From Desulfocapsa sp. (lineage in GTDB: Bacteria > Desulfobacterota > Desulfobulbia > Desulfobulbales > Desulfocapsaceae): 36,015 bases of DNA. Shown in pieces: positions 16,230-30,052 of this stretch (within the stretch, counting starts at the first letter, position 1; every line of letters starts with the position of its first letter). The stretch lies in NCBI GenBank assembly GCA_013792135.1, contig VMSP01000143.1, positions 1 to 36,015 on the forward strand. The letters run 5' to 3'. A model generated the notes under the pieces. It was given only the letters and a program-made list of their open reading frames with translations, did not search any database and was not told where the DNA came from. Made by a program: the position numbers and the translations under genes.

Positions 16230-16874
16230 ATGAAAAATAAAAGTGATAATAAAGAACCAAAAATGGACTCAAGAGAACGGATTCTTCAGGCCGCCGTCTT
16301 TCTCTTTGCCCGTCATGGCTTTGACGCGACCGGCATGCGTGAATTGGCGGCTCATGCCGGGGTAAACATCTCGATGGTGGGTTATTTTTTTGGCAGCAAA
16401 AAAGGAGTGTTGAAGGAGATTCTTGACAGCTTTCTTTCGGGATATCTGGCCATCGCCAGAGAGGAACTGGCCGGCGCAGGTGATCTGCACACTCGGCTTG
16501 AACGATTCATTGTCAGTACCGTCGGTTATTTTGATGTCCAGCGAGATTCCTTGATCATCGCCATCAGTGAACTGCCCCACGATGACCCTGAAATTGTCGA
16601 ACATAAAGCGGGATGGGCCAGGCAGATGGTGGGGATCGTCAACCGGGAGGTCTGCCAGCCTCATGCAGCAGAAACAGGGAAATACATTCCTCCGACCAGT
16701 TTGTCTCCTATGCTGACTGTTCTCATGGCCTCTCGTTATCTCTTCGCGCCTGTTATGGAAAAAGTTGAGCCGGGCAGTTCTGAGACTGTCAGTAGAGAAG
16801 AGTATGCAAAGATGATTGTCGGCCTGGTTCTGCAGGGAATTACTGGATCTGAGAGCAGGGTAACGAAGAGTTGA
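16230..16874 (+). CDS. TetR/AcrR family regulator of the efflux operon
   Basis: A 214-residue regulator. The DNA-binding domain is clear: SRERILQAAVFLFARHGF, then ATGMRELAAHAGVNISMVGYFF, with the glycine-rich turn and the Y-F-F at the end of the recognition helix. The ligand-binding part is typical in length but its ligand cannot be read. GAGG lies six bases before ATG 16230. A TTGACA promoter with a CAAACGTTTG palindrome lies directly upstream, so autoregulation is likely. The TolC, adaptor and RND genes follow on the same strand after 28 bases, so it is the local repressor of this efflux system. Confidence 0.87.
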   Translation: MKNKSDNKEPKMDSRERILQAAVFLFARHGFDATGMRELAAHAGVNISMVGYFFGSKKGVLKEILDSFLSGYLAIAREELAGAGDLHTRLERFIVSTVGYFDVQRDSLIIAISELPHDDPEIVEHKAGWARQMVGIVNREVCQPHAAETGKYIPPTSLSPMLTVLMASRYLFAPVMEKVEPGSSETVSREEYAKMIVGLVLQGITGSESRVTKS

Positions 16875-16902
16875 TTAAACACACTATTGGCAAAAATAAG
16901 CT

Positions 16903-18240
16903 ATGAAAAAAATGTTCTTTACACGGATTCTGCTCTTAAGCCTGTTCAATCAGGCCCTTCTTACCTTTCTTCCCGGGGCGAGCAGCGGCTTGACCATTGA
17001 CGAGGCCGTGGCTCTGGCCCTGGCCAACAATCCTGATCTGCAAAAACAGCAGATGAATCGGGCCTTGAGTGAAGAAGACCTGAGCGGCCAGAAGTCACAA
17101 GCTTTCGGCAAGGTTGATCTGGCGGCCTCCTATGGATATTACAACCTGCCGCGCACCCTGGCCCCTTTGACACCGGCGTCAATCGCCACTGATCCCAGGG
17201 GGGTTCCCACTACCGTGGATCTTTTTGCCACAGGCATCATGTATGAGGTGCCGCTTTTCACCGGATTTGCCCAGCAGCGTTCAGTGGAAATTGCTACACT
17301 GGAAAAAGAACTTGCTGGACTTGCACTCAAATTGAGCCGGGAACAGCTCATCTATAATGTGAAGTCGTTGTATGTAAATATCCTTTCCCTGCAGGCCCAG
17401 GAAGAGGCACAAAAGGCCTACTATGAGGCATTGCAGAACCTTTACGATGATATCTTGCTTGAGGTCAAACTTGGCAGAAAGGCCCGGGTTGAACAGCTGA
17501 AAGCTGCGGCGGATCTGGAAAATGCCAGGGTTCAGGCCCGGCAGATCAGCGGCAACATCAGGATAGTGAAGGCCGGTCTCAGCACTTTGCTGGGTGGAGA
17601 GACGATCACACCCCTGGAAAATCTTTCCGTAGAGATGGCGACCCCCGGGAAAACTGAACAGAACAAGGAAATAGAGCAGCTCGATCGATACCGTTCTGCT
17701 GCATTGGAAGTCGAAAAAAAGGCCAGGCTGGTTGATAAAAGCAGGGCGACCTTTTATCCCCAGGTAATCTTTAACAGCTTTTACGGCCAGAATTTTGGCC
17801 CCAATGATAGTTCCAATCTGCATGAAGGGGACTGGAATAATCAGGAGGTCTGGCAGGCAACCGTGAATCTGAAGTGGACTCTTTTTGACTTTGGTGCCCG
17901 GAAGACAGCCCGCCGGATGGCAGCTGTCCGTGAACAGCAAAGTCGGCGGGATCGGGTGAAAACCGAGCTCGAGTTGAAGAAATCGCTAAGTGAGGCAGAG
18001 ATTAAAATTGAGATGGCCAGGAATGCCTTTCATTCCGCCGAGTCCGAGCTTGCCCTGACCCGGGAAACGGAGATGATTGAGCAGGTCCGCTTTGATAAAG
18101 GAGCCACGGATGTGAATGATCTGCTCTCTGCCAAGTCCCGAAATCAACTGGCATTGAGTCGCTCGATTGCTGCCCGCTATAGCTATCATAATGGGTGTTT
18201 TTATCTGGATTACCTGTTGGAAAACGGAGAGAGTAAATGA
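16903..18240 (+). CDS. TolC-family outer membrane efflux protein
   Basis: A 445-residue outer-membrane channel. It begins with a signal peptide (MKKMFFTRILLLSLF, cut near GASSG), then LTIDEAVALALANNPDLQ, the usual first repeat of TolC proteins. Two long helical repeats follow (to ~230 and ~250-440), with a second-repeat segment VNLKWTLFDFGARKTARRMA that mirrors the expected W-x-L-F-D-F-G signature. It forms the exit duct for the RND pump encoded behind it. The adaptor gene's ATG overlaps its stop by four bases (ATGA), so the two are translationally coupled. Confidence 0.88.
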   Translation: MKKMFFTRILLLSLFNQALLTFLPGASSGLTIDEAVALALANNPDLQKQQMNRALSEEDLSGQKSQAFGKVDLAASYGYYNLPRTLAPLTPASIATDPRGVPTTVDLFATGIMYEVPLFTGFAQQRSVEIATLEKELAGLALKLSREQLIYNVKSLYVNILSLQAQEEAQKAYYEALQNLYDDILLEVKLGRKARVEQLKAAADLENARVQARQISGNIRIVKAGLSTLLGGETITPLENLSVEMATPGKTEQNKEIEQLDRYRSAALEVEKKARLVDKSRATFYPQVIFNSFYGQNFGPNDSSNLHEGDWNNQEVWQATVNLKWTLFDFGARKTARRMAAVREQQSRRDRVKTELELKKSLSEAEIKIEMARNAFHSAESELALTRETEMIEQVRFDKGATDVNDLLSAKSRNQLALSRSIAARYSYHNGCFYLDYLLENGESK

Positions 18241-19316
18241 AGAAAATTGTTATAGGATTGATGATTGTTGCCCTGCTTGTCAGTGCCGCCATGCTCCTCA
18301 AAAAACGTAAGCAGAGTATAACAAATACTCCAACTCCGGCCCCTTTGACCTATCAGGTGAAAGTCGTTTCGCCTTCCTCCGGGCGACTGGAGCAGACCCG
18401 TCCTTTTCTGGCCCATCTGGCCTCCCGGGACAGTGCCGAAATTGCTTCCAAGCTGAGCGGCCGGATAATAGAGATGCTCGCCCGTGAAAACCAGTCGGTA
18501 AAAAAAGGCGATCTCCTGCTGCGCATTGATGATCAGGAGATTGTCTCCAGCATCCAGTCCCTGCAGGTGACCATGAAGGCCCAGGAAAAAGATGTCCACT
18601 ATACCGGCAGCCTCCATGAACGCAACAGGGCTCTTGTTGAGGTGGGAGGTCTGGCTCAGGAAAAATTCGAGGCCTCGGAAGTTGCCTATCTCGACAAACA
18701 GGCAGCCCTGGCAGCGACTCGCCAGAAGATCAGCGCCCTGGAGGTGCAACTCAATTATCTCAAAATCACGGCCCCTTTTGCTGGGACGGTCGGTACTCTC
18801 TTTGCGCACCAGGGAGACTTGGCGAGCCCCGGCAAACCACTGCTCTCCCTTAACTCTCCCGGACAGAAACTCACCTTCAGCTATGTCGCTGGGGAGCCTG
18901 CCATCCGCCCGGGGCAGGAGGCCTTCCTTGGTGGCCTGGGTGGCCGGAAGATTGGTCGGATCACAACCCTGTACAGTGACGCGAAAAACGGCCTGTCAGT
19001 CGCCGAAGTGTCCCTTGACAGCCCCCTTCTAATGCCGAACAACAGTTATCTCACCATTGATCTGCTCATCTTTGCCGAGAATGGCTGCCTCATTCCCCTG
19101 GATGCGCTCCTCCACCAACAGGATGGAACAAAGGTCATGCTCCATGCAAAGGATACGTTCACTCCATTTCCGGTGCGTGTTCTGGGAGAAAATAGAGAAC
19201 AGGCCCTCATTGAACCATGTCCCAGCTCACCCATGGCCGTGGCACCGGAGGCAACGCTGGGGAAGCTGCCCGGCTATGGCGAAGTGCTGATCCGCAGGAG
19301 CGATGCCAATGAATAA
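18237..19316 (+). CDS. RND efflux periplasmic adaptor (membrane fusion protein)
   Basis: A 359-residue adaptor of the HlyD/AcrA type. An N-terminal membrane anchor (KIVIGLMIVALLVSAAMLL) is followed by a biotinyl-lipoyl-like half motif AEIASKLSGRIIEMLARENQ and VKKGDLLLRIDDQE, a helical hairpin (~100-160), the second lipoyl half ITAPFAGTVGTLFAHQGDLA, and beta-barrel and membrane-proximal domains. It joins the inner-membrane pump to the TolC-like channel. It overlaps the upstream gene by four bases and the pump gene by 14 bases, so all three are made together. Being anchored and not a lipoprotein, it resembles CusB/MdtA-type adaptors in topology. Confidence 0.88.
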   Translation: MKKIVIGLMIVALLVSAAMLLKKRKQSITNTPTPAPLTYQVKVVSPSSGRLEQTRPFLAHLASRDSAEIASKLSGRIIEMLARENQSVKKGDLLLRIDDQEIVSSIQSLQVTMKAQEKDVHYTGSLHERNRALVEVGGLAQEKFEASEVAYLDKQAALAATRQKISALEVQLNYLKITAPFAGTVGTLFAHQGDLASPGKPLLSLNSPGQKLTFSYVAGEPAIRPGQEAFLGGLGGRKIGRITTLYSDAKNGLSVAEVSLDSPLLMPNNSYLTIDLLIFAENGCLIPLDALLHQQDGTKVMLHAKDTFTPFPVRVLGENREQALIEPCPSSPMAVAPEATLGKLPGYGEVLIRRSDANE

Positions 19317-22300
19317 CAGTTTTGTAGAGCGCCTCCTGCGGCGGCCCTATTTCATCTATTCCTTTCTGGCCCTCTTTGTTTTCTTAGGGCTTGCCGGTTA
19401 TCAGAAGATTGACCGGAAACTCTTCCCGGAATCCAACTATCCGGAGATTGCCGTCGTTATTATCCAGCCCGGTGGCTCTGCCAAGACCCTGGCGGCCAAT
19501 GTTGCCGTGCCCGTGGAAGAGGAACTCTACAGCCTGGACAAGATACGCCGGGTCTATTCAACCACCATTGATGAAGTCTCTGTTGTCCGAGCCGAGTTTG
19601 AATACTCCAAAGACCTGAGTATGGCCGCAAGCGATGTGACCAACTCCCTGAACAAGATCCGCTCTCTCTTGCCGCCTGATATCCAGGAACCGCAGGTTCA
19701 TAAGATCTCTGCGGCCACAGCGCCCGTTGTGGTGATTGGCGTCAGTTCCGATCTGCTGGCGCTTCCTGATATCCGCCAGCTTGCAGAAAACGAGCTGCGC
19801 CATGAACTGCTCAAGACGCGAGGTGTGGCCAATGTTGACATCTTCGGCAGCTATAAAAAAGAGGTGCAGATCATCATTGATAAGGCCAAATTGGATCAAT
19901 ATGGTCTGGGTCTGGCTGCGGTGCTGGCGACAATACAGAGTAATAATAAAGATTATGCCATTGGTTTCATCTCCAATGAAAAAAGCCGTTACCTCCTGAA
20001 GTCTTCCGGCAAAGAGGAGACGATGCAGGGCCTGCGGGCTCTGCACCTGACCCCGGATGTGCGGCTGGCTGATGTGAGTGAGATCTACTTCGGTCATTAT
20101 GAAAACAGTTCGGGCTATTACGGAAATGGCCGGGAATCCATCGCCATCTCGGTACAGCGCGGGCTCGATGCCGATGTGCTGGGCACCATTACCCGGGTAG
20201 AGGAAAAATTAAAGACAATCAAGAGCGCCTATCCGAACCTCCGCTTTGAGATAACAGACACCCAGAAGGACACCATCGTCCAGAGTACGGACAATATGTT
20301 CGAGTCCCTGCGGGACGCCATCATCATGTCCACCATCGTGGTCTTCTTCTTTCTGGCCAGCTTCCGCCAGGTGCTGGTGGTCCTGGCCACAATTCCGGTG
20401 GTCTATGCTGCCACCATTGCCTTGATGTGGCTGGTGGGGATCGAATTTAATGTGGTGACCCTTACCGGTATTATCCTCGCCCTGGGCCTGCTGCTTGATG
20501 ACACGGTGGTGGTCATGGAAAATATTGAGCGCCATTATAAGGAGGGAGGGGAGGACATCAGAAAGTCGGTGATCTCCGGGACCAGGGAGATCATGTTTGC
20601 CGATCTCTCCGGAACACTTACCACCATGATTGCCCTGGCCCCCATTCTTTTTGTCGGCGGCTACCCCCAGACCGTATTCCGGCCCCTGGTGGGCACACTG
20701 CTCCTGGCACTCATGGCCTCCTATGTTATTTCGATTACGGCCGTACCTTTGCTGTCGATGAAAATACTGACCATGGAGCCGCCCTGGCTTATGCGCATGG
20801 AGGATTTTTTCCAGCGCATAACCGGCTTTATCATGAATTATATCAACTCCTTTTTTAGTGCCGCCGTCAACCTGGCCCTGCAAAGGAAGGTTGTGGCACT
20901 GGCCTATTTTATCGGCCTGGCCCTGCTCTTTGTCGTCAGTCTCCGGGGGGTGATGCCCACGGTGGGACAGGAGCTGATGCCCGCCATGGATACCGGCGGC
21001 ATCAAGGTCAACATTGTCACAGACCCCAACCTGCCCATCGAGGCCAGCCGGCGCATTGTTCGTGAGGCGAACACTCTGCTTGCAGACAATGGCCCCCTGC
21101 TGCGGCTCTCTTCAGCCATCGGCAGTGAGCCGGGAGTCCTCAGTATCGGCAGCGGCAGCGGCACGGATCGTATCGCCATTACCGCTACCTATGTAAATCG
21201 CTATGAGCGGGATGAGTCCATCTGGGAGATCGAAAAACGGCTGCGACCGCTCCTGGCCCGGATTGACCATGTCAAGCGACTGGAGGTGGTGGATTTCGGG
21301 GCAACTGCCCTGGCAAGTATCCGGGCAAATGTGGATGTGACGCTCTCCAGTAAAAACTTTGACGATCTGGAGAAAGCTGGAGACCTTGTTGAAAAAACCC
21401 TCTATAAAACCAGAGGTATCGTCTCGGTGGGGAGGAGCTGGGACAGGGATAAAAGCGTCTATAACCTTGAAATCTATCCGGCCAAGTCGGCCCTCTACGA
21501 CCTTAAAAGCGGGGAGATTGCCAGGCAGCTGCAGACTGTTTTACGAGGAGCGCTGGTGGCCTCCTTTCCTCTGCAGAACGGTGTTGATTTCGGGGTGCGG
21601 GTCTGGCTGCCTGCCGGTCAGCGAGATACCAGGGATATCCTGCAATCCACCTTGCTGGATACCCCTCAGGGCAAGATCCCACTGGCCGCCATCGCCTCAC
21701 TCAAGCGGGAGCTTGAGCCGGGGATCATCACCAGGGAAGGGTTGAACTATACCCTCAATGTCTATGGCTCCAGAGAGAAGGCCGCCATCTCCCATATCAT
21801 GGCTGATTTTGAACAGGCCTTTCAAGGGTCGAAACTGCCCCCGTCAGTGACCATGGAGCAGACCGGGGATATTCAACAATTTCAAAACTCAGCCGGGCGG
21901 ATGGCTGCTGCCGCAGGCTTTGCGGTGATCTTCATCTTTATTACCCTGATTGCCCTCTTTAACAGTGTCAGGGTGGCCGTTATGATCGTCCTTTCAATCC
22001 CGCTGACCATTATCGGTGCTTCCTGGACGAACCTCCTCCTCGGCTATCATGTCTCCATGCCGGCCATGATGGGTTTTATCCTTCTCTCCGGCATCATCGT
22101 CAATAATGCCATCCTCCTTATTCATTTTGCCCAGGAAAGGATGGCGGAGGGGATGTCCAAAAAAGAGGCCATGCTCGAATCGATCCAAATCCGTACCCGG
22201 CCGGTACTGATGACGGCCTTTGCCGTGGCCGCCGGCATGCTGCCGGTCGCCCTCGGTTCGGCCATTGGCCTCGAGCGGCTGGCCCCCTTGGGTGCCGTAG

Positions 22301-22401
22301 CAATCGGGGGCCTCATTGTCGGCACTGTTTTGACCCTGCTCTTTATTCCTCTTATCTTCATCATGGTGGCAAAGGAGGGCGGAGGGCAGGGTGGTGACTG
22401 A
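19303..22401 (+). CDS. RND efflux transporter permease (AcrB/HAE-like)
   Basis: A 1032-residue inner-membrane pump with the two-fold RND layout: membrane helix 1 (PYFIYSFLALFVFLGLAGY), a large periplasmic loop, six helices, a second loop and six more helices. The proton-relay pair is present in helix 4 as LGLLLDDTVVVMEN (D399, D400). In helix 10 the lysine of AcrB (K940) is replaced by asparagine (VNNAILLIHFA, N934), a change also common in other HAE-type pumps. It lacks the heavy-metal pattern of CusA/CzcA, so an organic substrate is likelier. It overlaps the adaptor gene by 14 bases and ends the tetR-tolC-adaptor-pump operon. Confidence 0.9.
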   Translation: MPMNNSFVERLLRRPYFIYSFLALFVFLGLAGYQKIDRKLFPESNYPEIAVVIIQPGGSAKTLAANVAVPVEEELYSLDKIRRVYSTTIDEVSVVRAEFEYSKDLSMAASDVTNSLNKIRSLLPPDIQEPQVHKISAATAPVVVIGVSSDLLALPDIRQLAENELRHELLKTRGVANVDIFGSYKKEVQIIIDKAKLDQYGLGLAAVLATIQSNNKDYAIGFISNEKSRYLLKSSGKEETMQGLRALHLTPDVRLADVSEIYFGHYENSSGYYGNGRESIAISVQRGLDADVLGTITRVEEKLKTIKSAYPNLRFEITDTQKDTIVQSTDNMFESLRDAIIMSTIVVFFFLASFRQVLVVLATIPVVYAATIALMWLVGIEFNVVTLTGIILALGLLLDDTVVVMENIERHYKEGGEDIRKSVISGTREIMFADLSGTLTTMIALAPILFVGGYPQTVFRPLVGTLLLALMASYVISITAVPLLSMKILTMEPPWLMRMEDFFQRITGFIMNYINSFFSAAVNLALQRKVVALAYFIGLALLFVVSLRGVMPTVGQELMPAMDTGGIKVNIVTDPNLPIEASRRIVREANTLLADNGPLLRLSSAIGSEPGVLSIGSGSGTDRIAITATYVNRYERDESIWEIEKRLRPLLARIDHVKRLEVVDFGATALASIRANVDVTLSSKNFDDLEKAGDLVEKTLYKTRGIVSVGRSWDRDKSVYNLEIYPAKSALYDLKSGEIARQLQTVLRGALVASFPLQNGVDFGVRVWLPAGQRDTRDILQSTLLDTPQGKIPLAAIASLKRELEPGIITREGLNYTLNVYGSREKAAISHIMADFEQAFQGSKLPPSVTMEQTGDIQQFQNSAGRMAAAAGFAVIFIFITLIALFNSVRVAVMIVLSIPLTIIGASWTNLLLGYHVSMPAMMGFILLSGIIVNNAILLIHFAQERMAEGMSKKEAMLESIQIRTRPVLMTAFAVAAGMLPVALGSAIGLERLAPLGAVAIGGLIVGTVLTLLFIPLIFIMVAKEGGGQGGD

Positions 22402-22516: not shown

Positions 22517-22873
22517 TCAGATCTTGCACTTGCCTTCGGCGACTTTGGGGAAACCGCTCAGGTTGAAGCTCTGGCCGCAACCGCAGGTGGTTTTGGTGTT
22601 GGAATTGGTGAACTGCAGGCCGCCGTTGATCAGCTCGTCGGAGTAGTCGATGACCAGACCGCCCAGAAATTTGGCACTTGCTCCGTCGGTAATAATAGTG
22701 ATCGTCCCGGCCGTATGGATCACACTCTCGCTGTCCTTCATCTCGCTTACGAATGCAGCGTCGTAGGTCAGACCGGCACAGCCTCCTTCTTTTACTGCAA
22801 CCCGCAGGAACTGGCCCGGTGCCATCTTGCTGCTCAGCATCGCTTCTGCTTTTTCTTTAATGGTGATATTCAT
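22517..22873 (-). CDS. IscA/ErpA-type iron-sulfur cluster carrier
   Basis: A 118-residue A-type carrier protein that receives a Fe-S cluster from the assembly scaffold and hands it to target enzymes. The three conserved cysteines are present: C32 in EGGCAGLTYD, and C97 and C99 in TTCGCGQSF, with the usual length for the HesB/IscA/ErpA family. Which of the subtypes it is cannot be told. ATG 22873 has a strong GGGAGG five to ten bases upstream and a plausible promoter further up. It is not next to iscS/iscU. The window is rich in Fe-S proteins that could be its clients, including the adjacent radical SAM enzyme. Confidence 0.9.
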   Translation of the reverse strand: MNITIKEKAEAMLSSKMAPGQFLRVAVKEGGCAGLTYDAAFVSEMKDSESVIHTAGTITIITDGASAKFLGGLVIDYSDELINGGLQFTNSNTKTTCGCGQSFNLSGFPKVAEGKCKI

Positions 22874-23081: not shown

Positions 23082-24383
23082 TTAGGCAGAGCGGTACCTG
23101 AGATCCTGCTGCAGCATGGGCTCCAGGGTGGCGTCAAGAAACGCGCGCTGGCAATCTACCTGTTTCATGTGGCCGTCACGCTGGAAGGCCATGTAGCGGC
23201 AGCCGCCGAAGCAGAGGGGTAGGTAGACACAGTCGCGACACTGCGCCTCGTCCTTCCAGTGGTCCAGGCAGTAGCTCTCCTGCCACCCTTGACCCATACC
23301 CTGCCATATATCGCCCGCCTCGTAACCCTTATGGCCAATCATGGTGATGCACTTATAGATGGTGCCGTCGTGATTGACGACCAGGGCGTCGTCAATATCC
23401 ACCATACAGGGAGAGGGGCGCATTTTTGCCAGCGGAAACCCACGCCGCCCCAACTCTTCCCGGATAAAAAGGGCCGCCTCGATCAGCCACGGTTCGGAAA
23501 TGGAGCAACAGCCGCTGCTGAATTCCGGGTTGGCGAACTGGTCGTTAATCTGCATCGCCGGGTAAAACTGCACTTGGGCCACCCGGTCGGGGGTGACTCC
23601 CTGCTCAAGGTAGAGGTCGAGCAGCTCGGGAAATCGCTGGTAATTGTCCCTTGTGTAATTGCCGACCAGATTGAGGCAGAGCAGATCGCAGCACTCTCGG
23701 ATGTTGTGCAGTACCACATCGAAACTGGGCATCCCGTTCTTCAATGGTCTGGACTGGTTATGGAGTTCCGCCGACCCATCCACGGTAATCTTGGCGCTCT
23801 TGAGGCCCAGAGGCAGTAACTCCGCCACCACGGCCGGGGTGAGCAGCGAGCCGTTGGTGACCAAATGGATCTCAAGGCTGCCGCCCCGTTCCTCGACCAG
23901 GGGCTTGAGCCGTTGGGCCAGTTCCCTGATGCGATCCAGATAGAGCAAGGTCTCGCCGCCATAGAGGTTGAGTACCAGCTTTTCCTTCCCCGGGGTGAAC
24001 CGCTGCCCCAGAAATCGGACGAGCTGGTCGGCGGTGGCATCGTTCATTCTGGACGCGCCTTCCTTCTGGCCGCCCTCGTAGCAATAGACACAGGCAAAGT
24101 TGCAGGCCATGCCTAGGATCACCGACACCCGCAGCGCCCGGTTGAGACGGTTCAGCTCGGCCGGCAGGTCATGAACAGCGGCCTGTTCGCCTGCCCGATC
24201 CTCCACCACCATCCCGAGCCGGGCCAGCAGGGCGGCCTGCTCCTGGGGGACAACCCCGGAGCGCAGCTGGGCCGCCAGCTCGGCGGGCAGCAGAGCCAGC
24301 GAGCATTTGCGGGTGGAGAAGAGCAGGTGCTGGCTGGCGCCCGGTTCAACAGGGTAGAGCTTGAGATAGGCGGAAGGGATCAT
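23082..24383 (-). CDS. Radical SAM/SPASM peptide maturase (geopeptide-maturase-like)
   Basis: A 433-residue enzyme. The radical SAM motif is CNFACVYC near residues 94-101, followed by LNLYGGETLL (GGE motif) and VTNGSLLT. The SPASM region is complete: C-x13-G-x4-C (SPCMVDI... to TIYKC), then CRDCVYLPLCFGGC (C-x2-C-x5-C-x3-C), and a last cysteine in DCQRAF, so two auxiliary clusters are expected. An N-terminal domain (AYLKLYPVEPG, LLFSTRKCSLALLPAELA) resembles that of geopeptide-type maturases (GptM, recalled from TIGR04280, unchecked). It should install crosslinks on the cysteine-containing peptide encoded just upstream. I start at ATG 24383, past the terminator; ATG 24392 is an alternative and neither has a clear ribosome-binding site. 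Confidence 0.85.
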   Translation of the reverse strand: MIPSAYLKLYPVEPGASQHLLFSTRKCSLALLPAELAAQLRSGVVPQEQAALLARLGMVVEDRAGEQAAVHDLPAELNRLNRALRVSVILGMACNFACVYCYEGGQKEGASRMNDATADQLVRFLGQRFTPGKEKLVLNLYGGETLLYLDRIRELAQRLKPLVEERGGSLEIHLVTNGSLLTPAVVAELLPLGLKSAKITVDGSAELHNQSRPLKNGMPSFDVVLHNIRECCDLLCLNLVGNYTRDNYQRFPELLDLYLEQGVTPDRVAQVQFYPAMQINDQFANPEFSSGCCSISEPWLIEAALFIREELGRRGFPLAKMRPSPCMVDIDDALVVNHDGTIYKCITMIGHKGYEAGDIWQGMGQGWQESYCLDHWKDEAQCRDCVYLPLCFGGCRYMAFQRDGHMKQVDCQRAFLDATLEPMLQQDLRYRSA

Positions 24384-24419
24384 GGGGGGCATGTACGGGG
24401 AGAAAAGAGGGGTCGAAAC

Positions 24420-24441
24420 AAAAAGGGGGCCGAAGCCCCCT
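24420..24441 (-). terminator. UUCG rho-independent terminator between peptide and maturase genes
   Basis: On the minus strand AGGGGGC-TTCG-GCCCCCT forms a perfect 7-bp stem with the very stable UUCG loop, followed by four further T after the paired one. It lies 19 bases after the peptide stop and ~37 bases before the maturase start, so most transcripts should end here, giving much more peptide than enzyme mRNA. Confidence 0.8.
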
Positions 24442-24459
24442 CTCTTTAACTTATGAATC

Positions 24460-24573
24460 TCATTCAGTGTCGACGGAGGGGGCCGGACTATTCGGCCGGC
24501 AACAGGCCATTGAGGCTGCCAGTTCTTCAGTTTCCATTCCTTGATCAAGTACTACTACCTCTTTGTTTTCCAT
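24460..24573 (-). CDS. 37-residue cysteine-containing RiPP precursor candidate
   Basis: This short gene has a near-ideal ribosome-binding site (AAAGGAG, 8 bases before ATG 24573). The product starts MENKEVVVLDQGMETEELAA, an acidic leader with a VVVLDQGM stretch that looks like a recognition region, followed by SMACCRPNSPAPSVDTE: a Cys-Cys pair, prolines and serines as the likely core. It lies between a TonB receptor and a radical SAM/SPASM maturase, with its own promoter and a strong terminator behind it, the usual arrangement of a modified-peptide precursor. It resembles the small cysteine peptides associated with geopeptide maturases, though I cannot confirm family membership. The product and its activity are unknown. 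It is not a fragment of the maturase, which is in another frame. Confidence 0.8.
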   Translation of the reverse strand: MENKEVVVLDQGMETEELAASMACCRPNSPAPSVDTE

Positions 24574-24628
24574 GAAGAGACTCCTTTGTTTGGGGTTTGA
24601 TATTTACAACTACAACACAACTCTCTTC

Positions 24629-24657
24629 CTTATCAACGATCAGACTACCGCTGTCAA
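24629..24657 (-). promoter_or_regulatory. Promoter candidate for the peptide gene
   Basis: Read on the minus strand, a perfect TTGACA (24652-24657), 17 bases and GATAAG (24629-24634, four of six consensus) lie in the gap between the receptor stop and the peptide gene, leaving a leader of about 50 bases. Together with the terminator it defines a short peptide transcript. Confidence 0.5.
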
Positions 24658-24668
24658 GGGGAGTCATA

Positions 24669-26531
24669 CTAAAAATGGAGGGTGATGCCCAGCTCCAGCC
24701 AGCGGCCGGCGTTTTTTTCCAACTCCACATTGTACTGGCTGCCGTCAAAGAGATTATGGGCGACGAAAAAGAGATCGTAGGTGAGCTCTCTGAAAACCAG
24801 GGGTTTGGTCACGGTCAGGTCCCAGATGATGGTGGAGTAGTCGCCTGAATCGTCTGGTTCATGCCGCTGATCCAGCCAGATGTAGTGGCCACCAAGGCGG
24901 GCTTGGATAAAGGGGCTGTCGTACTTGCAGATGAGGTTGCTCATTTGCTCCGCGTCGTTTTCAAAGATATTGCCGTTCCAGTCGGCGATGGAGTCTTTAT
25001 AGTCGGTGTGGGTATAGGTGTGGTTGGCCAGCAGTGACAAGTCGTGCCATTTAATGGTCTCCGCCTCCAGTTCAAATCCTTGCCGCACCGCCTTGCCGGT
25101 GTTGACATACTGGCCGCCCCAATCCGAAGGGAGGGTGCTGTCCCAGGTCCAAGAGTCCCGTTCACGGTGTTGGAACAGGGTGACCTTGGTCTGTAGGTTG
25201 GGGACGGATGTGCTCTCCAGACCCAGCTGGGTGGTCCAGGCCTTGGACGGTTTCAGGCCGGGCGAATAAGCGAGGGTGGAGGAAGGCGGGCGGCGAAAGC
25301 CACTGGAGGCCCCGGCCCGGAGGAGGTTCTGCTCGGAGAGGCGATAGGTCATGCCGAGGCTTGGACTGAGCAGGTCATCGGCGTTGAGGTTCTGGTCGTA
25401 GCGCAGGCCAGGGGTAATGGCAAACTTCCCCCAGACCACGGTATCGTTGACATAGACCCCCAAGAATTCATCGTAGACCCGGTTTGGATCGCCTGCGTCC
25501 TCATAATAATTACGATGATGCTCGCTGCCGAAGACCACGTTGTTGTCGCCAGCCCGCCAGTTGATATGGCCCATAACGGAGGTGAGGGAATGGCTGCGCT
25601 GGTTCCATGGATGGTCATACTCACGGTCGAAGTTCTGGACGCTCAGATGGTAGCTGAGACTCTCTCGGGGCGAGCTATCCAGGGCCAGGGTGTAGAAGGT
25701 GTCCTTCTCGCTCGTCCAGAATTTCTCTCCCCAGTACAGTTGCGACATTTTCATATAATCGGGGGCGAAACGGCCCACGGAGGCGGTAAGGGTGGAACGG
25801 AACGGAAGATCGGCGGCGGAGAACTTGCCGAAAAAGGTTTCAAAATCCCGGGAACGGCCGTAATCGTCGTTGACCAGACCGTCGGTGTTCAGAGAGCCGG
25901 CATGGAGGAAGTAGCCAAATCTTCCCATCTTGCCCGCCGCCTCACCGTTGTAGGTACTGGTGTTGTGCTCTCCGTGGGTGGCGCTGAGGCTGCCCGTGGG
26001 CAGGATGCTCTTGCCCGTGCCCTTGGTAACAATATTGATCACTCCGCCCAGGGCAGAGCCCCAGGTGGAGGAGGTGGCGCCCTTGATCACCTCGATTCGG
26101 TCGATGATGGCAACCGGAATGGCGTTGGTCTCGTTGTACTCGGAGTCGATAAAGGACCAGCGCATACCGTTCAGGAGCACGGTCACCTGTTCATAGTCGG
26201 AGTTATGGATATAAAGAGAACTTGGGGCGCCGATATCTTCTCCTTCGGGGATAACCAGGAGACCAGCGGTGTACTTGAGCACCTCGGCCACCGAGTGGGC
26301 ATGCATGGCGGCGATCTCGGCGGCGCTGATGATGGTGACGTTCTCGGCCACTTGGGTAAGGGGCTTGGCGGCGCGGGTGGCTACCTCCACCATCTGGGAG
26401 TCGTCGAAGTACATGGCCAGGGGATCGGCATCGGCAGCCTGGGCAGCCTGGGCGACAGGGAGGCAGCAGAGCAGGGTGGCGGCCAAAGGGGCCAGACTGT
26501 GGGCAAAACAGGGTTGTTTGGCAGGGGGCAT
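24669..26531 (-). CDS. TonB-dependent outer membrane receptor
   Basis: A 620-residue receptor. The signal peptide (HSLAPLAATLLCCLPVAQAA) is cut near residue 35; MVEVATRAAKPLTQVAENVT follows, leading to a plug domain (~60-170) with ISAAEIAAMHAHSVAEVLK, IDRIEVIKGATSSTWGSAL and GVINIVTK. The rest is a 22-strand barrel, ending in the aromatic LELGITLHF needed for outer-membrane insertion. It resembles BtuB/vitamin and peptide receptors more than large siderophore receptors and has no N-terminal signalling domain. I start at ATG 26531, at the signal peptide, with AAGGA ~12 bases upstream. It sits directly upstream of the peptide gene and divergent from the binding protein-kinase operon, so its ligand could be the modified peptide. 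Confidence 0.88.
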   Translation of the reverse strand: MPPAKQPCFAHSLAPLAATLLCCLPVAQAAQAADADPLAMYFDDSQMVEVATRAAKPLTQVAENVTIISAAEIAAMHAHSVAEVLKYTAGLLVIPEGEDIGAPSSLYIHNSDYEQVTVLLNGMRWSFIDSEYNETNAIPVAIIDRIEVIKGATSSTWGSALGGVINIVTKGTGKSILPTGSLSATHGEHNTSTYNGEAAGKMGRFGYFLHAGSLNTDGLVNDDYGRSRDFETFFGKFSAADLPFRSTLTASVGRFAPDYMKMSQLYWGEKFWTSEKDTFYTLALDSSPRESLSYHLSVQNFDREYDHPWNQRSHSLTSVMGHINWRAGDNNVVFGSEHHRNYYEDAGDPNRVYDEFLGVYVNDTVVWGKFAITPGLRYDQNLNADDLLSPSLGMTYRLSEQNLLRAGASSGFRRPPSSTLAYSPGLKPSKAWTTQLGLESTSVPNLQTKVTLFQHRERDSWTWDSTLPSDWGGQYVNTGKAVRQGFELEAETIKWHDLSLLANHTYTHTDYKDSIADWNGNIFENDAEQMSNLICKYDSPFIQARLGGHYIWLDQRHEPDDSGDYSTIIWDLTVTKPLVFRELTYDLFFVAHNLFDGSQYNVELEKNAGRWLELGITLHF

Positions 26532-26625
26532 GGTCTTTGATTTCCTTCTTTTAAGGGGGGGGAAGGCCAACACGTCATATTGCGGATGGTTGGCGAATTT
26601 ACCTTGATCTAAGGGGCAGTTTGCT

Positions 26626-26653
26626 ATTAGCATAATAAAAGAATAGCTGACAA
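26626..26653 (-). promoter_or_regulatory. Promoter candidate for the TonB receptor
   Basis: On the minus strand TTGTCA (26648-26653), a 16-base spacer and GCTAAT (26626-26631) make a moderate sigma-70 match, with a TG two bases before the -10. It lies in the 154-base divergent region shared with the binding-protein operon. A spaced palindrome GCCAAC/GTTGGC (26566-26594) stands between it and the receptor start and could bind the response regulator. Confidence 0.35.
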
Positions 26654-26685
26654 CTCGCCGACTTCCTCGACTCTCTAAATTTTTG

Positions 26686-27645
26686 ATGAGACACGGACAT
26701 CACATAACCGCACGCATAATCTTCCTTCTGGTGCTGCTGGCCCTGCTGTCGGCCACAACGGCCTGGGGGCAGGAGTGCGTCCTGCTCCAGTCTTCGGCGC
26801 TGAAGCCCTACGAAGAGGCCCGCCAGGGTTTTGAACAGGCGTGGAGTGCCCAGCGGCCCGTTTCGGGGCCAAAAAGCATTACCCTCGGCAACCTAGCACA
26901 GGTGCTGCTCTCGGAACAACCCGAGGAAAACATGGGTGTGTTTAAAAAGCAACTTGAAAATGCGCAACTGGTGGTGGTGATCGGCGATCCGGCCCTGAAT
27001 TTCGTCCGTGATCTGCAGCAGACGCCAGTCCTCTATCTCCTGGCCCCCTCGGCCGATAAGCTTCCCGCCAACTTCACCGGCATCGATATGTGCATCCTCC
27101 CTTCCCAGCAGCTGGAGGCGATGAGCCGACTCATGCCCAAGGTTCGCAGTATCGGTGCTCTCTACAATCCGGCCCGGAGCGGCCAGTGGGTCCAGGAGGC
27201 GCTCATGAGTCAGGTGAGCGCGGTGGAGACCCTGCTCTTCAAGAAGGTTGCTGCCCCATCTCTTGTGCCCGAGGCCCTGAAGAGTCTTGGCAATAACATC
27301 ATCGACGCATACTGGCTGCTGCCGGACGAGCTGGTTACCAACCCCCAGACCATGGAGCACCTGCGAGAGTTCTCCATAGCCAACCGGGTGCCGATTGTCA
27401 GCTTTTCAGACAAGTACCTTAAGGCCGGGGCCGCCGCGGCCATCACCTTCGACATGATTGACATGGGCAGCCAGGCAGCGGAGATGGCGGCCCGTATCGT
27501 CGCTGGTACACAGCCAGGCGAGATCCCGGTAGAGCCGCCGCGCCGCCAGCGGGTGATCGTCAACACCAGTGTCTTTCGCAGGATGGGGGTGGTGATCAAC
27601 GATGCTGCAGTGGACGAAGTCTATTCTGGAGGAATGGAACAATGA
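26686..27645 (+). CDS. ABC-type periplasmic substrate-binding protein (PF04392-like)
   Basis: A 319-residue exported protein. The signal peptide is RIIFLLVLLALLSATTAWG-Q; the mature part has the two-lobe fold of the ABC substrate-binding family PF04392 (TrpX-like): LVVVIGDPALNFV, TPVLYLLAP, SIGALYNPARSGQW, IDAYWLLPDELV, VPIVSFSDKYLKAGAAAAITFD and a C-terminal VNTSVFRRMGVVIN. No ABC permease or ATPase is near; instead the stop overlaps the start of a histidine kinase (ATGA), so this protein probably presents a ligand to the kinase rather than feeding a transporter. ATG 26686 is preferred to TTG 26683; no strong ribosome-binding site is visible. Confidence 0.85.
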   Translation: MRHGHHITARIIFLLVLLALLSATTAWGQECVLLQSSALKPYEEARQGFEQAWSAQRPVSGPKSITLGNLAQVLLSEQPEENMGVFKKQLENAQLVVVIGDPALNFVRDLQQTPVLYLLAPSADKLPANFTGIDMCILPSQQLEAMSRLMPKVRSIGALYNPARSGQWVQEALMSQVSAVETLLFKKVAAPSLVPEALKSLGNNIIDAYWLLPDELVTNPQTMEHLREFSIANRVPIVSFSDKYLKAGAAAAITFDMIDMGSQAAEMAARIVAGTQPGEIPVEPPRRQRVIVNTSVFRRMGVVINDAAVDEVYSGGMEQ

Positions 27646-29324
27646 AGCTTTTTCATCGGCCTATTTTGTGCAGAATGGGCTTCAACCTCAAAATCCTGCT
27701 GACCCTGTCTCTGATTCTGCTCGGTTTTGCCGTGGCTTCCGGGATGGCCTTCAATATGATCCAGCGCAAAGAGCTTAAGGGCCATCTTGACCACCAAGGG
27801 GAACTGATGGTCACCATGCTCTCCGGTTCCCTTCAGTCGGGGCTCTATTTCGAGGATCGTGCAGCTATTGACCAGGCGGTGAATACCTTAGTATCCCTGA
27901 ATCTCCATCATGATATGGAGGCGGTTGCGGTTTACGATGTTAATGATGGGGTACTTTTGCGCAATTTCCTCGCCAAAGCGGAGATCCCTGCAGAATTTAC
28001 GAGTATGGCTGGCCACATGGCCACTGCCCTTAGCTCCTTCCACCGGGATACTGATCAGGGGAAGGTCTGGGAGGGTGACAATCTAATCATCTTCACGGCA
28101 CCGGTTTCGGTGGCGGCCAAGCAGCAGAGCAACGAAAGCCTGTTCTTCGACACCAAAGACAATGTACAGGCCCGCACTGTGATCGGGTACGTCCAGTTGG
28201 TTACAAACAAGTCTCAATTCGACAATACAGTAAGCAAGACCGTACTCCGGACGACGATGCTGACCATCCTCTTCCTGTTCATCTCCCTGGCCGCCACCTA
28301 TATGCTGACCCGGGCGACCATGACACCGCTCAGGCGACTGATTGACACCATCCGGGAGCGGGGCGGTCAGAAAGAGGTGGGTGCGGACGAGGTGGGACTT
28401 TTGGGCGATACCTTTTCCCAGCTGGTAGATGACCTCGAAAATTCTTTTTCGACCATCCAGACCCTCAAGGAAGGTCTGGAGGAGACGGTGACGGAACGCA
28501 CCAGGGAGCTGAGCCAGGCACTTACCGAACTCAGAGAGACCCACATGCAGCTGGTCCAGTCGGAAAAAATGGTGGCCATCGGCCGGCTGGTGGCAGGCAT
28601 TGCCCACGAGATCAACAACACCACCAATTTCATCAGCGGGGCGCTGCCGCCGTTGCGCAAACGGCTCAGCGAGATGGAGGGACTCCTCCATGTGCCGGCA
28701 GGAGAAGGACCTGATATTGAGCGGTGCGAGGCCATCTTTATGAATCTGACCCTGCTCCTGAATAATATCAGCGAGGGGGCGCGGCGGACCAATAAGATCG
28801 TCGGCGACCTCAAAAACTTTTCGCGACCGGTCGATGAATTGCCCGGGCTGGTTGACATTAACTACTGTCTGCGCTCCACCATCTCGCTGGCCTATCCGGA
28901 GTACAAGCATCGCCTTGAATTGAACCTGGAGCTGGCCGAAGAGCTGCCCCTGATTGAGGGTGTGCAGGGACAGCTTAACCAGGTGTTCATGAATCTGTTG
29001 CTCAATGCGATGCAGGCGCTCCCCGTACAAGGAACCATCTTGATCCGCACATGGGTAGTTGAAAACGAGGTACACATTCTGTTTCATGACAACGGTCCCG
29101 GTATTCCAGCCGGGGTGATCGACCGGATTTTCGAGCCCTTCTTTACCACCAAGGAGATGGGCAAGGGCACGGGGCTGGGACTTTCCATATCTTATGGTAT
29201 CATCAATAAACACCAGGGTAAAATCCTAGTGCTGAGCGAAGCGGGAGACGGTACCGAATTTGAGATCATCTTGCCGCTCAGGTGGCAGAAAACAATAGAA
29301 ATCATCACTGAGGAGAGACAATGA
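27642..29324 (+). CDS. Membrane sensor histidine kinase
   Basis: A 560-residue kinase. Membrane segment 1 lies at ~16-38 and segment 2 near 205-227, bounding a periplasmic domain of ~165 residues ([20 protein letters not shown]) that fits the CHASE8/dCache-like sensors. A HAMP-like linker ([17 protein letters not shown]), a coiled coil and HisKA follow: the phosphorylated histidine is H322 in GIAHEINN. The ATPase domain has [12 protein letters not shown] (N box), DNGPGIP and [11 protein letters not shown]. It should phosphorylate the response regulator encoded next, with which it overlaps by ATGA; it likewise overlaps the binding-protein gene upstream. The sensed ligand is likely relayed by that binding protein. 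Confidence 0.92.
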
Positions 29325-30052
29325 ATAGGGATCTGAGCAAGGTGCTCTATGTGGACGATGAAGAGATCAACCTGATCAACTTCAGAGAATCGCTTTGCGA
29401 TAAGTTCGAGATTTTTACCGCTCTTTCCGGCGAAGAGGCGTTGTTGGTGCTGGAGAAGGAAAAGGATATAGCCCTGGTGGTCAGCGATCAGCGGATGCCG
29501 GGGATGAAGGGCGTCGACCTGCTGGCCAGGGCACTGGAGCTGGCTCCTTATGCCGAGCGGATCATCATCACCGGCTACACCGACCCCCAGGATATTATTG
29601 CCGCCATCAATGAAGGCCATGTCTACCGCTACATTCTCAAACCCTGGACCGAGGAAGATCTGCAGGTCACGATCACCCATGCGGTGGAACGACATCATCT
29701 CAAACAACATAATCGGGAGCTGCTAGAGGAGCTGAACCGGAAAAATATGGAGCTTGAGGACCGGGTCAGGGAGCGCACCGCCCAACTGGCAATGACCATC
29801 GAGACCTTGGCAGCCAAGGTGGAGGAGCTGGAGTGGACCAAATACGAACTGAAGACCCTGCAAGGGTTTCTTGCCATCTGCTCCTACTGTAAAAAAATAC
29901 GGGACACCGATGATACCTGGGTGCCCATAGAGGAATACCTGCACCGCCATGCTGACATCATGCTCACCCATGGTATCTGCCACCAGTGCCATGCGCAGGT
30001 GATGAAGGATCTGCCGGCCCAGATAGAAAAGTTCCTAGGCAAGGAGAAGTGA
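29321..30052 (+). CDS. Response regulator with coiled coil and C-terminal four-cysteine motif
   Basis: This 243-residue protein opens with a full receiver domain: D12 and D13 for Mg, phosphoacceptor D56 in VVSDQRMPGM, T84 and K107 in YILKPW. Residues ~120-180 are a coiled coil (NRELLEELNRKNMELEDRVR, then ERTAQL). The end has C187 and C190 in AICSYCKKIRDTDDTW and C220 and C223 in LTHGICHQC, a CxxC...CxxC motif seen at the C-terminus of many signalling proteins in this phylum, probably metal-binding, function unknown. It has no helix-turn-helix, GGDEF or HD-GYP domain, so its output is likely protein-protein interaction. It is coupled by ATGA overlap to the kinase. Confidence 0.9.
   Translation: MNRDLSKVLYVDDEEINLINFRESLCDKFEIFTALSGEEALLVLEKEKDIALVVSDQRMPGMKGVDLLARALELAPYAERIIITGYTDPQDIIAAINEGHVYRYILKPWTEEDLQVTITHAVERHHLKQHNRELLEELNRKNMELEDRVRERTAQLAMTIETLAAKVEELEWTKYELKTLQGFLAICSYCKKIRDTDDTWVPIEEYLHRHADIMLTHGICHQCHAQVMKDLPAQIEKFLGKEK

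Follow-up and report, generated by a model that had tools for sequence, protein, structure and literature searches.

A geopeptide-like precursor and its radical SAM maturase are linked to a dedicated TonB receptor and a binding protein-kinase pair in Desulfobacterota and may form a make-export-reimport-read circuit

The window analyzed here, a stretch of 36,015 nucleotides of Desulfocapsa sp. contig VMSP01000143.1, encodes a short Cys-Cys peptide, a radical S-adenosylmethionine (SAM)/SPASM maturase, a TonB-dependent receptor, a periplasmic binding protein, a histidine kinase and a response regulator. Precursor and maturase resemble the geopeptide families, and in Desulfobacterota genomes they are tied to one clade of TonB receptors and accompanied by the binding protein and the kinase. 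As the function of the cluster, we propose a make-export-reimport-read circuit centred on a ribosomal peptide, a proposal on which our own judgement is evenly divided. The features of the locus are as follows.

23082..24383, minus strand: geopeptide radical SAM/SPASM maturase (TIGR04280, 498 bits); the listed open reading frame reaches a TTG at 24548
24414..24442, minus strand: terminator-like hairpin followed by a T-rich tail, located between peptide and maturase and possibly acting as an attenuator
24460..24573, minus strand: geopeptide-like precursor of 37 residues, with a leader containing VVVLDQG, then CC and a short variable tail
24669..26531, minus strand: TonB-dependent receptor of the maturase-tied clade (PF07715, PF00593, tree and genome search); the listed frame extends to 26633
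26683..27645, plus strand: periplasmic binding protein with a TrpX/CD0873-like fold (PF04392; model with a predicted local distance difference test score, pLDDT, of 88.5)
27642..29324, plus strand: sensor histidine kinase with a periplasmic sensor region (HATPase_c, weak sCache_4)
29321..30052, plus strand: response regulator with a PF00072 receiver and a Cys-rich C-terminal region

All six genes were found on the strands on which the original prediction had placed them, and its description of the plus-strand genes as translationally coupled is supported by two 4-base overlaps between successive genes. Pfam and NCBIfam scans covered eight window proteins. The maturase reached 498.2 bits against the geopeptide maturase model TIGR04280 (cut-off 400) and also exceeded the cut-off of the SPASM model TIGR04085; the frame listed from the TTG at 24548 overlaps the peptide, and the alignment of relatives places the start near 24383. 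The peptide scored 21.2 bits against the geopeptide model TIGR04229, below the cut-off of 30. Its ATG is preceded by AAGGAG 7 bases upstream, and it is present as a single copy (search at E <= 10) in the host genome, which comprises 4.2 Mb in 186 contigs and is rated 99.99% complete. The receptor contains a Plug domain (PF07715) and a beta-barrel (PF00593) and likely starts at 26531, ahead of a signal-peptide-like stretch, rather than at 26633.

The linkage between maturase and receptor was analyzed with a profile of 27 receptors that was searched over 395 Desulfobacterota genomes. Scores dropped from 581 to 472 bits, and the cut was set at 500. Above it were 40 places in 32 genomes, 35 of which lay within 5 kb of a maturase, while two were at contig ends and three were solo. 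Conversely, 33 of the 36 maturases above the cut-off had a receptor of this clade within 5 kb, the remaining three being located on short contigs or at a contig end. Counted per genome, with at most four maturase and three receptor candidates scored in each so that the counts are lower bounds, 31 genomes carried both, none carried the maturase alone, one carried the receptor alone and 363 carried neither (Fisher p 3e-45, from genomes that are not independent). Homologous receptor-kinase operons located mostly apart from peptide and maturase would have spoken against the original prediction; instead, receptors of the clade mostly reside beside the peptide system.

In a tree of 88 receptors, to which a few loci contribute two rows, all 49 maturase-adjacent rows fell into one clade with a Shimodaira-Hasegawa-like approximate likelihood ratio test (SH-aLRT) value of 99. 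The clade also holds L088, L097, L103 and the contig piece L106 (L numbers denote the loci compared). Outside it were 20 other receptors, hand-picked among the Plug matches listed, as well as 11 of the 13 receptors that are paired with PF04392 proteins and lack a maturase. The predicted association of peptide, maturase, receptor and kinase thus holds for one receptor clade, whereas cassettes of TonB receptor, PF04392 protein and kinase also exist without a maturase. Among solved structures the receptor profile was nearest to CirA and BtuB. A vitamin B12 receptor was considered and rejected, as the best NCBIfam match, TIGR01779, whose cut-off is 600 bits, reached only 109 and CirA scored above BtuB; no ligand is therefore implied.

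The surrounding genes were tabulated for 48 maturase loci (the peptide of L071 was added and L041 marked as fused by hand), 32 of which had at least 7 kb of upstream sequence. Peptide and receptor were present in all 32, a kinase was likewise found in 32/32 at a low score threshold, and some regulator was detected in 23/32. A separate binding protein was encoded in 31 of these loci; in the remaining one it is fused to the kinase. At least three gene orders were distinguished. In the first (window, L032-L040), regulator, kinase and binding protein are divergent from receptor, peptide and maturase. In the second (L051-L056, L058-L060), kinase, binding protein and receptor are divergent from peptide and maturase, with the kinase undetected in some loci. 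In the third (L044, L074, L075, L082), binding protein, kinase, in part a regulator, and receptor are followed by the maturase, all on the same strand. The six-gene neighbourhood of the window therefore recurs in Desulfobacterota as a set whose order is variable, and the set is retained while order and flanking genes vary between families. Sequence clustering of the neighbours revealed no additional family in more than five loci, except for an NtrC-like regulator family in eight, and by this clustering no inner-membrane importer or metal regulator recurred. A scan of genome contigs yielded 17 records that were Desulfobacterota-like or unassigned (L032-L048), along with two weak matches in planctomycetes (L049, L050).

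Alignment of 40 precursors, the window peptide and 39 relatives, showed a leader motif that usually reads V-L-x-x-G in addition to the CC, at a mean column identity of 24%. The tail behind the CC is variable and in many cases comprises 6-8 residues with a terminal Arg or Lys; the invariance of the CC is partly due to selection, because it formed part of the precursor search. Of 49 loci, 47 showed a strict peptide motif led by a Shine-Dalgarno (SD) sequence at a distance of 2.5 kb or less from the maturase; as the motif was derived from these same loci, this is a consistency test and not a blind test. The two loci without a match, L076 and L079, lie on contigs that stop after 1.6 and 0.8 kb of upstream sequence, respectively. 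The control DNA amounted to 968 kb and gave a single match, which lay in the 499,880 bases farther off in the same loci; none was obtained in the 468,172 bases from control loci, from which L103, L106, L136, L137, L138 and L143 had been left out as they are known to carry the peptide or the maturase. The peptide frame is thus conserved beside maturase homologues, where a lack of conservation would have spoken against the original prediction. With TIGR04229, 0 of the 395 genomes were above cut-off although maturase loci carry clear precursors, so that the model misses most of them; it was dropped as a search tool because it is too short and because 147/395 genomes, as well as 7/14 control genomes, respond at E <= 1. 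In L055, two complete systems with differing peptides are located 6.4 kb apart in one genome.

A hairpin behind a precursor gene is the usual means of making more precursor than enzyme. Terminator-like hairpins were detected within 75 nucleotides past the peptide stop at 19 of 36 tested loci; 20 rounds of dinucleotide shuffling gave 2.0 on average and never more than 4, and 11 of 288 random windows had such a hairpin. This excess rests on our own hairpin rule; by the terminator rule of the scanning tool, which reported the peptide-maturase hairpin on the plus strand only, it was not found. The hairpin may raise the output of precursor over that of maturase here. A promoter scan of 24300-26800 gave no more matches than shuffled sequences yield.

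The radical SAM cysteines and the C-terminal cysteines were invariant in 24 aligned maturases. CteB (PDB 5WGG/5WHY) was the best solved relative of the window maturase by sequence (E 5e-34) and also the best fold match of its AlphaFold model (pLDDT 91.5), with Z 27.8 and a root mean square deviation of 4.2 over 382 aligned positions (residues 4-429, about 17% identity). The two proteins thus share the SPASM fold and the N-terminal region over nearly the full length, and judging from the model the N-terminal part may serve as a leader-binding domain. The next matches, anSMEcpe and ChlB (Z 26-27), leave the N-terminal region uncovered; as they follow closely and identity to CteB is low, the fold match does not fix the chemistry of the maturase. 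In L065, L067 and L068 the maturase frames comprise about 690-730 amino acids, owing either to an upstream frame that stays open for long or to an extended N-terminus.

The model of the binding protein (pLDDT 88.5) was closest to CD0873 (Z 26.0), followed by L-Trp-bound 3LFT (Z 21.6) and XylFII-LytS (Z 14.7), and TorT was among its Foldseek matches. In a tree of binding proteins, 40 of the 43 maturase-linked ones formed one clade, which also holds L110 and L115, both without an adjacent maturase. The window kinase matched HATPase_c and sCache_4 above cut-off and HisKA and HAMP below. Being encoded with a periplasmic binding protein and bearing a periplasmic region, it has the properties by which LuxPQ-type kinases are recognised, and in L041 (4753-7473) a PF04392 binding protein is directly fused to a histidine kinase in a protein of 907 amino acids. 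The C-terminus of the window regulator (29884-30052) contains four Cys in the motif CSYCKKIR...GICHQC, for which no Pfam family scored above cut-off.

No exporter is evident in the window cluster, in agreement with the original prediction, but in several relatives this does not hold, as mutually homologous major facilitator superfamily (MFS) genes adjoin the maturase in L044, L070, L071, L076 and L079, and the copy of L044 matches PF05977. These data lend no support to the idea that the product may act inside the cell. Downstream of the maturase, window positions 16230-22401 read as a block of TetR, TolC-like, membrane-fusion and resistance-nodulation-division (RND) efflux genes. Export by this block was rejected, since an RND gene is found at the same place in L033, not in L046, and the family is not recurrent. 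A bacteriocin cluster was likewise rejected: no peptidase-domain exporter or immunity gene was recognised in the listed neighbourhoods, where Pfam was applied to selected neighbours. Just 3' of the maturase (22517-22873) an IscA/HesB-type iron-sulfur protein is encoded, which is shared with two close relatives, L033 and L046, alone.

A sister lineage carries maturases that score below the TIGR04280 cut-off (249-308 bits). In L085, L089, L092 and L093 the maturase is followed by a peptide of 24-26 residues, a family 5 (SBP_bac_5) binding protein and a kinase. These peptides read MK..(I/V).KKG..., contain one Cys near an aromatic residue and have a strong SD sequence. Family 5 binding proteins bind oligopeptides among other ligands. 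The binding protein has thus been swapped for an unrelated family while the kinase was kept, as expected if the pair reads the product. L088 combines a clade-edge receptor with a family 5 protein, a CC peptide and a maturase. In L136 (1759-8850), a sister maturase and a CC peptide directly follow a CobT gene, a BtuF-like binding protein and a FecCD permease; two further genes ahead of the peptide are presumably CobU and CobS, and an MFS gene overlaps the maturase by 4 bases.

Precursor, maturase, dedicated receptor and the pairing of binding protein and kinase, including their fusion, can be read from the gene sequences. In the proposed circuit, the maturase would cross-link the Cys region of the peptide; a thioether is our guess from its nearest relatives. 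The leader would then be removed and the product would leave the cell, in some relatives by an MFS pump. It would re-enter the periplasm via the TonB receptor, where the binding protein would capture it and report to kinase and regulator. Since no inner-membrane importer recurs and the kinase does, reading in the periplasm is favoured over a ligand that is eaten, and we think that the molecule serves primarily as a signal or probe and only secondarily as a nutrient carrier. A more specific version, which we hold tentatively and at about one chance in three, is a Gram-negative ribosomal-peptide signalling language in which each lineage has a private peptide with a constant leader and CC and a variable tail; this peptide would be exported, re-imported via a co-inherited TonB receptor and read in the periplasm by binding protein and kinase. 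It would be a language to which L139 and L097 may listen in and in which the sister lineage swapped the binding protein and kept the circuit.

Several observations weigh against the proposed circuit. L139 (8498-13857) and L097 carry clade receptor, binding protein and kinase with no recognisable peptide; L097 also lacks a recognisable maturase, and in the genome of L139 none was found at E <= 1e-60. These cassettes may eavesdrop on or pirate a neighbour's product, or they may have another ligand. In the sister lineage, the receptors beside the maturases of L092 and L093 lie outside the clade, no receptor was seen near the maturase of L085, and the gene set was not seen at L094 and L095, which hold weaker maturase relatives. 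Three of the 43 maturase-linked binding proteins group with L097, L104 and L105, PF04392 proteins also pair with other receptors, and the kinases counted at the low threshold belong to a common family. For the window regulator, only the receiver was recognised, with no DNA-binding or other output family above the Pfam cut-off. Co-variation of the peptide core was weak (partial r 0.21 with the receptor and 0.27 with the binding protein, n=31), and that of the leader was similar. Product, export, cleavage, binding and signalling are, finally, predictions from the genes.

The main rival is a methanobactin-like metallophore, in which the peptide would bind a metal outside the cell, the receptor would import the complex and binding protein and kinase would report the level of the metal or of the complex. 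We give this roughly one chance in four, and monitored metallophore uptake would look much alike. The adjacent CC pair, the dedicated TonB receptor, the MFS_3-type pumps at some loci and the position of sister locus L136 behind a BtuF-like binding protein and a FecCD permease are in line with it. A passage in PMC3621798 describes methanobactin operons (MbnA, B, C, T, M) that combine a Cys-containing precursor with a linked TonB transporter, an exporter and sometimes a binding protein, and the window shares the ribosomal Cys-containing precursor and the linked transporter. It differs in that it has a radical SAM enzyme, that the MbnB and MbnC families were not found among the eight scanned proteins and that a histidine kinase takes the place of FecI/FecR as the partner of its binding protein. 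Moreover, neither an inner-membrane importer nor a metal regulator recurred in the sequence clustering, the tail behind the CC is highly variable, the four sister peptides have a single Cys and the pairing with the kinase is steadier than that with any pump.

In a second rival, which is rather unlikely, the ligand detected by receptor, binding protein and kinase comes from the environment and is unrelated to the peptide; they would do no more than induce the peptide, whose action, perhaps antibacterial, would lie elsewhere. Such cassettes do occur without peptide or maturase (L097, L139), and PF04392-kinase modules serve other receptors, but the receptor clade tracks the peptide system over the 395 genomes. 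In addition, L103 encodes a clade receptor, a binding protein, a kinase and a peptide with CIC in place of CC with no adjacent maturase, two maturases being located elsewhere in the genome; at this locus it is the peptide that the receptor accompanies.

For pyrroloquinoline quinone (PQQ), the TonB receptor is PqqU. A PqqU profile was among the weak matches in the NCBIfam scan, which, together with the combination of a radical SAM/SPASM enzyme with a short precursor and the location of L136 directly after cobalamin salvage genes, would fit a ribosomally made PQQ-like cofactor precursor that is also scavenged from outside. This is improbable, as a cofactor would be expected to have a constant core, yet only the CC, which the search required, and the leader motif are constant, and no inner-membrane importer recurs. 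Proximity through inheritance alone, with no common function, can practically be discarded: close relatives do have further neighbours in common, but the set persists across families despite changed flanks and order, and the receptor tree and the 395-genome table speak against it.

With regard to known systems, the geopeptide families fit the window in that the maturase is above cut-off with a short CC precursor adjacent, whereas the precursor is below cut-off and the family names are silent on receptor, binding protein and kinase. By analogy, methanobactin is the nearest counterpart for receptor and export, and LuxPQ, TorTS and XylFII-LytS for the sensing arm. According to a passage in PMC6321045, LuxP-LuxQ, TorT-TorS and XylFII-LytS comprise periplasmic binding proteins that activate sensor kinases. 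TorT and XylFII have the general fold in common with the window binding protein; the latter differs in belonging to PF04392 (family 5 in the sister lineage) and in being tied to a ribosomal peptide and a TonB receptor. In the open-access literature, neither 'geopeptide' nor the model accessions were found, and the string 'geopeptides' occurred inside other words only, in 17 papers on other subjects, as judged from the listing. Peptide and maturase families have thus already been named, while their linkage to receptor, binding protein and kinase was not found in print there, judging by titles and abstract openings.

The linkage provides a named but functionless peptide family with a testable physiology. 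If the proposed circuit is true, it would be a new Gram-negative means of sensing a self-made peptide across the outer membrane, here in metal- and sulfate-reducing lineages; if the peptide is a metallophore, methanobactin would have a counterpart that is made by a radical SAM enzyme.

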